The notes under the pieces: generated by a model
What the model was told of the DNA's origin: nothing
The model's database searches: none
What the model saw: only the letters and a program-made list of their open reading frames with translations
Made by a program: the position numbers and the translations under genes
Part shown: piece after piece, positions 18,519 to 20,831 of the stretch
Layout of the letters: every line of letters begins with the position of its first letter
How positions within the stretch are numbered: the stretch's first letter is position 1
Assembly (NCBI GenBank): GCA_022824725.1
Contig: JAJDZH010000434.1
Location: 1 to 33,973, forward strand
Direction of reading: 5' to 3'
DNA length: 33,973 bases
Source of the DNA: Thermoanaerobaculia bacterium
GTDB taxonomy: Bacteria > Acidobacteriota > Thermoanaerobaculia > Multivoradales > Multivoraceae

Positions 18519-18594
18519 GCCCAGGTAGCTCAGTTGGTAGAGCACCTGACTGAAAATCAGGGTGTCGGTGGTTCGAATCCGCCCCTGGGCACCA
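18519..18594 (+). tRNA. tRNA-Phe (anticodon GAA)
   Basis: 76 nt cloverleaf: acceptor GCCCAGG/CCTGGGC, D-arm TAGCTCAGTTGGTAGAGCA, anticodon stem CCTGA/TCAGG enclosing the loop CTGAAAA (GAA anticodon, reading UUC/UUU), T-arm with GGTTCGAATCC, and an encoded 3' ACCA at 18591-18594. On the plus strand, divergent from purH. Confidence 0.97.
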
Positions 18595-18778
18595 TGTTCG
18601 CGACCCGGTCAAGGCCCCGATTCCAGACCGCCGGTGCGGAGGACTCGGAGAATCCGCAGGTATTCCGCAGTGCCTTCCAGAACCCTTCAACCAGGCTCCG
18701 GGAGCGGCAAGTAACGGCAATGACGACACTTACGGACGGACCGAGCCGCCTGCCCCGCGACCGGAGAAGAACACCGTC
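18595..18778. other. Spacer between tRNA-Phe and the putative large RNA
   Basis: No supported gene. The short frames here lack a plausible product. The segment is less repetitive than other gaps and holds no copy of the REP-like repeat. It ends at the predicted promoter of the downstream RNA. Confidence 0.4.
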
Positions 18779-18808
18779 TTGACACACCCTTCATACGGCC
18801 TGTACGTT
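18779..18808 (+). promoter_or_regulatory. Sigma70-like promoter for the putative large RNA
   Basis: A consensus -35 TTGACA (18779-18784), 18-bp spacer and -10-like TACGTT (18803-18808) lie 7 bp upstream of G18816, where the 5' strand of the closing helix begins. The match to consensus at -35 is exact, the -10 is moderate. The local sequence is more A/T-rich than its surroundings. Confidence 0.6.
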
Positions 18809-18815
18809 ATTTCGC

Positions 18816-19434
18816 GGATAGGGACTGTGACCAAGAATCGCATCCTGATCCACCGGTCCTGAGACGCGACCTTCGGATCGGAGCCTGAGAAGGGCGAAAG
18901 TCACGTTCGCGTGGTGGGCGCTCGTCGAAGGCGACGGTAGGAGGGTCACGAATCGGACGCCGGGCTCGGCGGCAGGAGCCGCTGGGAGTCGGGGGACCTG
19001 GAGGCGCAAGCCAAAGGGAAGCCGGATTCCGAAAAGCTCCAGTCATCGAGTGGCTCCCGTGGCCGACAGTCTTCCCGGGAGCGGCGCCGAAGGGCGAAAG
19101 CCTGCCGGAGGCGTTACTGGGAAGACGGCTTCAGGGAAGCGGACGGCCGGAAAGTTGCCCGGCAGCAACGGAATGGCCGACCGGTAACTGAAGCGCTTCG
19201 TCGGCAGACCCTACGGGGGCTTCGTCGTGAGACCCGACCAGTCGAGCGGCGAAGTGTCCCGCAGGCGTCAGGTCGGCAAAGGCCAGGCTTCGGTGAGTCC
19301 CCGGCTGGTGGCGCGCTCGCGCTCCAAGACCCATGCCCGCCAAGCTGTAGAGGTCTGAGAGATGCGAACGGTGGGGTGAGAGGCTGAGGTCGATTCGGGT
19401 GAGATTCCTGAAGCGGTCCCTATCCTCTTTTTTT
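18816..19434 (+). ncRNA. Putative large structured non-coding RNA, about 620 nt, class unknown
   Basis: No reading frame covers this stretch. The ends pair: 18816-18828 (GGAUAGGGACUGU) with 19413-19425, 13 consecutive pairs including two G-U, and the 3' strand is followed within two bases by seven T's (19428-19434), as an intrinsic terminator would be. Inside are several further helices: CGTCG/CGACG at 18923-18936, CTGGAG/CTCCAG (18998-19003 with 19037-19042) enclosing GGC-GCAA-GCC, GTCTTCCC/GGGAAGAC (19069-19076 with 19119-19126) enclosing GGGC-GAAA-GCCT, GTTGC/GCAAC (19154-19169) and AGACC/GGTCT (19327-19356). Two GNRA tetraloops are visible. The 12-mer GAAGGGCGAAAG occurs at 18889 and again at 19089. 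I do not see the RNase P GAGGAAAGUC core, the tmRNA tRNA-like ends or the SRP tetraloop domain. Whether it is a known large class (GOLLD, ROOL, OLE) cannot be judged by eye. Confidence 0.65.
19418..19434 (+). terminator. Probable terminator: closing helix 3' strand plus T-run
   Basis: The 3' strand of the end-to-end helix (19413-19425) is followed by TC and seven T's. The 5' partner is 600 nt away, so this would function either as a long-range structure or with a local alternative hairpin. No other run of seven T's was noticed in this GC-rich window. Confidence 0.5.
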
Positions 19435-19461
19435 GGCCCGGCGGAAACCTAGCACGGTCCG

Positions 19462-19494
19462 CCCGTAAGTGCAACCCCGCCAGCAACTTACGGG
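19462..19494. repeat. Hairpin with perfect 9-bp stem
   Basis: CCCGTAAGT (19462-19470) and ACTTACGGG (19486-19494) are perfect inverted arms around a 15-nt loop, in the spacer between the putative RNA and the second winged-helix gene. It could be a second termination structure or an operator for the downstream regulator. No gene overlaps it. Confidence 0.5.
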
Positions 19495-19709: not shown

Positions 19710-20831
19710 ATGCAGCGCGGTAACGGCACGTCGCAAGAGGCAGCGCCCAGGCGCGGCAAGCGCCGGGTCACCGCCCGCCGCAAGCCGCGCCGGCTGCGTT
19801 TCGGCAACTTCGAGTTCGACCCCGAGACGCTCGAACTGCACGGCGACAGGGAGTCGATCCGGCTCCAGCCGCAGCCGGCCAAGCTGCTTCACCTGCTGAT
19901 CGCCAGCCGCGGCGCCGTCGTGTCGCGCGCGGCGGTTCGGCGGCACCTCTGGCCCGACGAGATCCACGTCGAGTTCGACCAGAGCATGAACTCCTGCGTC
20001 AAACGCATTCGGGTGGCGCTCGGGGATAGCGCGGAGGCTCCCCGCTACATCGAGACGCTTCCGCGGATCGGCTATCGATTCCTGCAGCCCGTGATGGAAG
20101 TTCCGGAAGGTGACCCGCGGCTACCGGCTCCGCGGGCCGCGCCGGCCGCCCCGGAACCCCGGCCGCGGTCTCGACGGATCGCGGCTGCAGTGCTCGCGGC
20201 GGTGGGCGCGGCCCTCGGAATCGTCCTCACGGTCCTGACCTGGCATGGCCTGGACTCCCGGCCCGGCACCGCCGACGAGCCGCCGCGCCAGGTACTTGCG
20301 GTGCTGCCCTTCGCCGCCCTCGAGAACTGGACCGGCGCCGAGCCCTTCCGCCAGGCCCTGGCCCAGGAACTCATCACCTCACTCGCCCGCCACGGCTCGC
20401 AGAACCTCGCCGTCGTGGCCCAGGACGCCGGGCCCGACGTGGATACCGGCGCGGCGGTGCCCGGCGTCAACGCCGACTTCGTCCTCGACGGCCGCGTTCA
20501 GCGCGAGCAGGGCACGCTCCGGGTGTGGGCGCGCCTGCTGCTCGCGAAGGACGGCACCGTGCTGTGGACCGAGGCCTACGACGGCGCGGAGGACGAGATC
20601 CTCGTCTTCCAGACCGAAGTGAGCGCCAGGATCGGCGACGCCGTGCTCGGGCGGTTGGCGCAGTTCGTCGAGGAAGACCCGGCGCCGCAGAGTTCCAGGC
20701 GGAGCCGGCCTGACGGCCGGCGCCCTGTCTTCCACGGGTCAGAAGACCCATGGTCACACGCCTTCGGCGGCAGCGGGTCAGAAGACCCGCGCACCCAGCG
20801 GATTCCGCCAGGAGCCGGGGCGGCCGGGTAG
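19710..20831 (+). CDS. Winged-helix DNA-binding membrane protein with FlgO/TolB-like periplasmic domain
   Basis: 373 aa. An OmpR-type winged helix at about residues 28-130 (RLRFGNFEFDPETLEL ... LWPDEIHVEFDQ ... ETLPRIGYRF) is closely similar to that at 330-923. A hydrophobic helix follows (about 153-176). A FlgO/TolB-N-like domain then runs over about 190-335 (VLAVLPFAALENWTGAEPFRQAL ... ADFVLDGRVQ ... WTEAYDG). This architecture is frequent in Acidobacteriota and usually continues into TPR repeats, which are missing here. From about residue 335 the sequence is low-complexity, and residues about 351-363 ([12 protein letters not shown]) are the REP-like repeat read in frame, so the original C-terminus was probably replaced or extended by the repeat. 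The end overlaps the convergent aat gene by 54 bp. Confidence 0.8.
   Translation: MQRGNGTSQEAAPRRGKRRVTARRKPRRLRFGNFEFDPETLELHGDRESIRLQPQPAKLLHLLIASRGAVVSRAAVRRHLWPDEIHVEFDQSMNSCVKRIRVALGDSAEAPRYIETLPRIGYRFLQPVMEVPEGDPRLPAPRAAPAAPEPRPRSRRIAAAVLAAVGAALGIVLTVLTWHGLDSRPGTADEPPRQVLAVLPFAALENWTGAEPFRQALAQELITSLARHGSQNLAVVAQDAGPDVDTGAAVPGVNADFVLDGRVQREQGTLRVWARLLLAKDGTVLWTEAYDGAEDEILVFQTEVSARIGDAVLGRLAQFVEEDPAPQSSRRSRPDGRRPVFHGSEDPWSHAFGGSGSEDPRTQRIPPGAGAAG
20736..20798 (-). repeat. REP-like repeat, copy 8, plus a partial hairpin
   Basis: Complete hairpin GCGGGTCAGAAGACCCGC at 20773-20790 with the head to 20798 and the preceding GGCGGC element; a partial copy GGGTCAGAAGACCC lies at 20736-20749. 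The copy provides the stop codon and last six codons (LGARVF) of aat on the minus strand and part of the C-terminus of the winged-helix protein on the plus strand. Confidence 0.85.

Follow-up and report, generated by a model that had tools for sequence, protein, structure and literature searches.

A conserved large structured RNA gene downstream of tRNA-Phe in Candidatus Multivorans, apparently of an undescribed family

The window, defined here as the whole stretch of 33,973 nucleotides analyzed, contains a gene for a structured RNA on the plus strand. The gene is 610 nucleotides in length, measured from one strand of its closing helix to the other (18816-19425). Computation establishes a conserved gene with a conserved fold, strand, and promoter and no coding content. 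A conserved non-coding unit with its own promoter and a conserved complex fold is of a known kind, the large stand-alone structured non-coding RNA. The family itself is apparently undescribed, confined to one genus, and unrelated by sequence to OLE, ROOL, and GOLLD. The favored reading, held with a probability of about 0.83, is that the gene stands alone and encodes a large structured non-coding RNA that acts as RNA. A sequence-only reading of the same DNA had proposed that a large structured RNA of an undescribed kind is encoded downstream of tRNA-Phe, and the three checks run (comparison with Rfam, a search for homologs and compensatory changes, and a search for coding in another frame) favor it.

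The locus is ordered purH (minus strand), tRNA-Phe, RNA gene, and winged-helix regulator gene. The coordinates of these and other features are listed in Table 1. The upstream neighbor is tRNA-Phe in all 19 genomes bearing the RNA, at a distance of 187-230 nucleotides. It is a single tRNA gene and does not belong to a tRNA island. In G005, G009, G014, and G020, purH lies approximately 4-6 kb from the RNA and has no adjoining tRNA-Phe. The stretch from purH to tRNA-Phe has thus been rearranged or filled in these genomes, while tRNA-Phe and the RNA stayed linked. The regulator gene is found downstream of the RNA in every RNA-bearing genome. It is approximately 60% conserved between clades, far below the RNA core, and begins about 275 nucleotides beyond the T-run in the window, a distance that includes an invariant element of opposite orientation. 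In one genome (G004) the regulator protein encoded downstream of the RNA matches at residues 171-327 only, which is the C-terminal part, so its DNA-binding N-terminus may be absent or out of frame.

Table 1. Features of the RNA gene and its flanks, with positions given in window coordinates.
Feature	Position	Strand	Basis
tRNA-Phe (GAA)	18519-18594	+	ARAGORN; Rfam tRNA, 74.4 bits
Direct repeat AATCCGCAG-N2-ATTCCGCAG, 11-bp period	18651-18670		Both TCCGCAG copies retained across 19 genomes (5' flank alignment)
Imperfect dyad CAAGTAAC...CACTTACGG	18708-18736		Partly conserved in the 5' flank alignment
RNA promoter, TTGACA - 18 nt - TACGTT	18779-18808	+	-35 and TACGTTRTTT conserved across 19 genomes; flank otherwise drifting
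Structured RNA	18816-19425	+	Homologs in 19 of 21 genus genomes; strand z-scores; 99.1% of pair cells kept
Closing helix, 5' strand	18816-18828	+	13 pairs kept in 19/19; 11 never vary
5' core: long-range helices to 19335-19391, with hairpins 18853-18881 and 18883-18895	18829-18922	+	92.7% identity across the deepest split; consensus fold
Arm: helix 18966-18985/19047-19066, GCAA tetraloop hairpin 19003-19012	18966-19066	+	Main helix, 99.7% of cells paired
Arm with GAAA tetraloop (GCAA in relatives)	19069-19126	+	Helices 14-15, three pairs with two-sided change
Arm ending in hairpin 19154-19169	19128-19194	+	Helices 16-18, four pairs with two-sided change
Long hairpin; loop region GAGACCCGACCAGTC nearly invariant	19215-19260	+	Helix 20, 17 pairs, 100% of cells paired
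Site of extra peripheral domain, rich in GNRA hairpins in relatives, absent in the window	19300-19301	+	Alignment and folding of relatives
Closing helix, 3' strand	19413-19425	+	Alignment; consensus fold
T-run, probable transcript end	19428-19434	+	Seven T's here; 4-7 in relatives
Promoter-like element TTGCAC - 17 nt - TAGGTT, oriented toward the RNA	19446-19474	-	Invariant in the 3' flank
Winged-helix (Trans_reg_C) regulator gene	19710-20831	+	Pfam PF00486; tblastn

Homologs of the RNA were identified by blastn against 60 relatives. They are present in 19 of the 21 genomes of Candidatus Multivorans (Acidobacteriota, Thermoanaerobaculia), a genus from an uncultured lineage that lives largely in association with sponges, and range from 609 to 856 nucleotides in length. 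Outside the genus this search returned only short, GC-rich, weak matches, which are regarded as chance. Two covariance models were built from different parts of the RNA, with 132-133 positions each; R1 was run over 149 genomes from the class and R2 over 396 from the phylum. Neither found a match outside the genus under strict filters, which weak matches can escape. An exact 26-base core of the RNA was also searched in one genome per species across 84,980 species, and the 16 contigs matched correspond to members of the genus. Phage records, plasmid records, and viral contigs gave no match, and a phage or plasmid origin was set aside on the basis of these collections.

Two genomes of the genus lack the RNA. 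One of these (G012) also lacks a tRNA-Phe match, so the gap may be due to the assembly. The other (G019) is a complete, single-contig genome in which purH, tRNA-Phe, and the regulator gene are present in order with no RNA between them. At this locus (L076, 2035-2720), the spacer holds a short sequence, GGTGTCAGGCCCGACATCTGCGACGAG, in two copies. In the purH tree, G019 is nested beside two RNA-bearing genomes with support of 100/99, and loss of the RNA is therefore the simplest reading. The RNA is probably ancestral to Candidatus Multivorans. Because it was lost in one species, it is probably not strictly essential.

The RNA is under strong selection relative to its flanks. Between the two main clades, which form the deepest split in the genus, the first 107 RNA columns at the 5' end are 92.7% identical and RNA columns 337-472 are 88.6% identical. 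Identity is 45.6% in the 5' flank, promoter excluded, and 54.7% in the 3' flank. For purH, the third codon positions are 61.6% identical between these clades, the first 88.2%, and the second 90.9%. In its best-conserved parts, the RNA thus tolerates about as little change as a conserved enzyme does at the codon positions that determine its amino acids, which does not hold for the variable arms. The claim that no ORF is present was upheld: no frame is plausible, and homolog lengths leave all three possible remainders on division by 3, so a conserved reading frame is excluded. A coding gene is ruled out by indels that break every frame.

The closing helix is composed of 13 contiguous base pairs, two of them G-U, between GGATAGGGACTGT and GCGGTCCCTATCC. 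A test of duplex energy was replaced by a test for contiguous helices, as GC-rich DNA yields strong imperfect duplexes regardless. In dinucleotide shuffles, a 13-pair helix arose between the 120-nucleotide ends in 62 of 2000 cases (approximately 3%) and at the exact 40-nucleotide segments in 10 of 5000 (0.2%). Taken alone in one sequence, the closing helix is only moderately unusual. Conservation settles the reality of the feature, since the closing helix is intact in 19 of 19 genomes and TTGACA is kept in a drifting flank. With 11 of its 13 pairs invariant, covariation neither supports nor refutes this helix.

A consensus fold of the 19 sequences was obtained with RNAalifold and contains 165 pairs. 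Standard pairs occupy 99.1% of the consensus pair cells, compared with 98.5% (sd 0.1) after shuffling, and drop to 32-49% when the partners are slid by 1-3 columns. Two-sided changes were seen at 9 pairs and in 25 cells, against 4.5 and 7.4 in shuffles that ignore the relatedness of the genomes; 0 of 500 shuffles reached either value. Most pairs never vary, so the covariation is modest. It is nevertheless real, and the arms it supports are the variable ones (helices 13-15, 17, and 18). The compensatory changes expected of a structured RNA were thus found among the homologs from 19 genomes, to a modest degree.

Folding also distinguishes the strands. The 625-nucleotide region folds to -327 kcal/mol, compared with -276 kcal/mol (sd 9) in shuffles (z = -5.7). 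The z-scores were -5.6 and -7.9 for the sense strand and -2.7 and -3.2 for the antisense strand, and the consensus energy was -226 for sense and -170 for antisense. Folding of both strands rules out the antisense strand as the functional RNA.

Internal to the closing helix, long-range helices link 18829-18919 with 19335-19391, and four arms follow. The conserved loop of hairpin 19154-19169, at the end of the third arm, includes the invariant palindrome CCGG, and the hairpin is also complementary to the invariant segment 18959-18965. The CCGG loop is a candidate for an intramolecular pseudoknot with this segment or for a self-kissing contact, either of which is possible. The extra domain is present at 19300/19301 in L010-L019, where it is approximately 80, 165, or 245 nucleotides long. 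Its absence in the window's genome and several relatives points to repeated loss or gain. The extra arm yields a poor consensus when both clades are folded jointly and a better one clade by clade. Hairpins capped by a GNRA tetraloop number 5 in the window RNA, compared with 1.9 in shuffles, and 13 in L015, compared with 2.3.

All of the elements named in the sequence-only reading are present, including TTGACA (18779-18784), the 18-nucleotide spacer, TACGTT (18803-18808), and the 13-pair helix. The seven T's are also present, but do not directly follow the helix as claimed, because a TC intervenes. TTGACA is kept across the 19 genomes, with variation of one base at its edge in the alignment. 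The spacing of the promoter places the start of transcription at approximately 18815-18816, seven nucleotides after the -10 and at, or one base before, the beginning of the closing helix. A generic consensus scan of the region found no sigma-70 promoter and no local terminator hairpin. Of the claim that a promoter and a T-run delimit the transcript, the promoter half stands on its conserved -35 and -10, and the terminator half is weaker. The 3' end of the RNA is less certain, as there is no local terminator hairpin and the T-run is down to four T's in some species. The T-run is duplicated in G004.

The flanks contain further conserved elements. Between tRNA-Phe and the RNA promoter, the TCCGCAG direct repeat is kept in 19 genomes, save one base in single genomes, and is a putative regulator site. 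The dyad at 18708-18736 is a candidate operator and by eye resembles the reverse complement of 19466-19492. Downstream of the RNA, all 19 genomes share TAGCAC-N10-TAAGTGCAA without variation; it has one copy in each of five RNA-bearing genomes tested and none in G019. Read on the minus strand, this 3' flank element has the form TTGCAC-17 nt-TAnnnT in most genomes. It is a putative promoter, from which a transcript would begin at approximately 19438-19440 and run antisense through the RNA.

The RNA was compared with the 4227 families of Rfam. At gathering score only tRNA matched, and at E<=10 only three chance-level matches were added. These whole-library scans gave no covariance-model match to ROOL, GOLLD, OLE, or any other Rfam family, so the suggested membership in GOLLD, ROOL, or OLE was not borne out and a general resemblance is what stands. 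The usual setting of ROOL and GOLLD in phages, prophages, and tRNA islands is likewise not found here, with no match in phage, plasmid, or viral records. The sequence-only reading had noted no RNase P, tmRNA, or SRP core motifs. None of these models, nor that of 6S RNA, matched at the RNA locus, and each of the RNAs is encoded at another locus. RNase P RNA is found at G000:C393 (233 bits), tmRNA on contig C443 (80.7 bits, with its 5' end cut at the contig end), SRP RNA on contig C443, and 6S RNA on contig C199.

From these data we infer transcription of the RNA gene from the plus strand and action in trans. Transcription would proceed from the RNA's own promoter, start at about 18815-18816, and end near the T-run. 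The ends of the transcript would be joined by the 13-pair helix, and the interior would form a multi-arm, GNRA-rich fold. Most likely the folded RNA particle would act in trans as a scaffold, an RNA-only oligomer, or an RNA-protein complex. Like OLE, ROOL, and GOLLD, it may have an accessory function that the cell can do without; it resembles these RNAs in its size, closed ends, arms rich in tetraloops, dispensability, and possession of its own promoter. A scaffold or oligomer mechanism, drawn from this analogy, is tentative and somewhat short of an even chance. A more specific proposal is a genus-specific RNA machine (an RNA-only cage or oligomer, or a ribozyme) whose level would be set by a dedicated antisense promoter just past the 3' end, transcribing back across the RNA, with the CCGG loop as a possible self-contact of the oligomer. 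This proposal is unlikely.

Most likely the RNA does not serve as a message or a housekeeping RNA, nor as a leader of the gene that follows. The idea that it is a cis-acting leader or attenuator of the winged-helix regulator gene, by which the long RNA would control read-through, is improbable. The regulator gene follows on the same strand wherever the RNA exists, and the T-run could be an attenuator. However, the T-run and the regulator gene are set apart by the interval containing the invariant opposite-facing element, and the regulator is much less conserved than the RNA core. The size and closed ends of the RNA would also be unusual for a leader, and G019 keeps the regulator and other neighbors intact without the RNA, which argues against a required leader. 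The same loss also speaks against a new catalytic RNA, possibly acting on tRNA or itself, a reading judged quite improbable. The long invariant unpaired stretches in the core, the GNRA-rich fold, and the position beside a tRNA gene are consistent with a ribozyme, but no Rfam ribozyme family matched and RNase P is encoded elsewhere.

Membership in one of the known giant RNA classes (GOLLD, ROOL, or OLE), with too much divergence for Rfam to recognize, would explain the similar size, complexity, and tRNA proximity, and the ROOL of L. salivarius also adjoins a regulator gene (PMC5643018, PMC12286853). This explanation is very improbable: Rfam gave no match even at E<=10, the searches made turned up no phage or prophage context, and the RNA occupies the same chromosomal position throughout the genus. 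That the region is a GC-rich intergenic relic or decayed mobile element without function, which simply happens to fold well, is hardly credible. Such a relic would fit the restriction to one genus, the absence in G019, and the partly inverted-repeat-like flanks. It is largely refuted by the strong purifying selection relative to the flanks, and the strand-specific folding, compensatory change, and conserved promoter also stand against it.

Apart from the housekeeping RNAs, only a few bacterial RNAs longer than about 600 nucleotides are known to have conserved complex folds. The present family, new and unrelated to these, offers 19 natural variants, an arm resized within the genus, and one natural loss, and is an independent case for what large structured RNAs do and how often such RNAs arise. 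As the host lineage is uncultured and largely sponge-associated, the RNA may also bear on symbiosis.

The RNA can be compared with four known systems. OLE RNA is approximately 600 nucleotides in length. Like the RNA described here, OLE is large, has many helices, and is found in the chromosomes of a limited set of bacteria. It differs in its phylum, the RNA here has no Rfam match to it, and the RNA here lies between tRNA-Phe and a winged-helix regulator gene. Class A RNase P RNA of bacteria is also a large, multi-helix RNA with a long-range closing helix, but no match to it was found here and a normal RNase P RNA is present at another locus. GOLLD shares tRNA proximity and a complex fold, and its length is often more than 800 nucleotides (PMC12286853). 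In contrast to GOLLD, the RNA here has no Rfam match and is not phage-linked as far as searched. OLE, ROOL, and GOLLD form RNA-only complexes, either dimers or cages (PMC12286853), and two of the three are of unknown function; the raiA motif was resolved as a monomer (PMC12286853). Not every large RNA oligomerizes, then, and the RNA here may or may not do so. ROOL (Rumen-Originating, Ornate, Large) is similar in length (659 nucleotides for env-120), has a complex fold, is often near tRNA genes, and is dispensable (PMC12286853). The ROOL of L. salivarius is an abundant, dispensable lncRNA with an HTH regulator gene beside it, and both it and the RNA here adjoin a regulator gene (PMC5643018). 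Unlike ROOL, the RNA here has no Rfam match and no phage or prophage context was found for it; it occupies one inherited chromosomal site in one genus.
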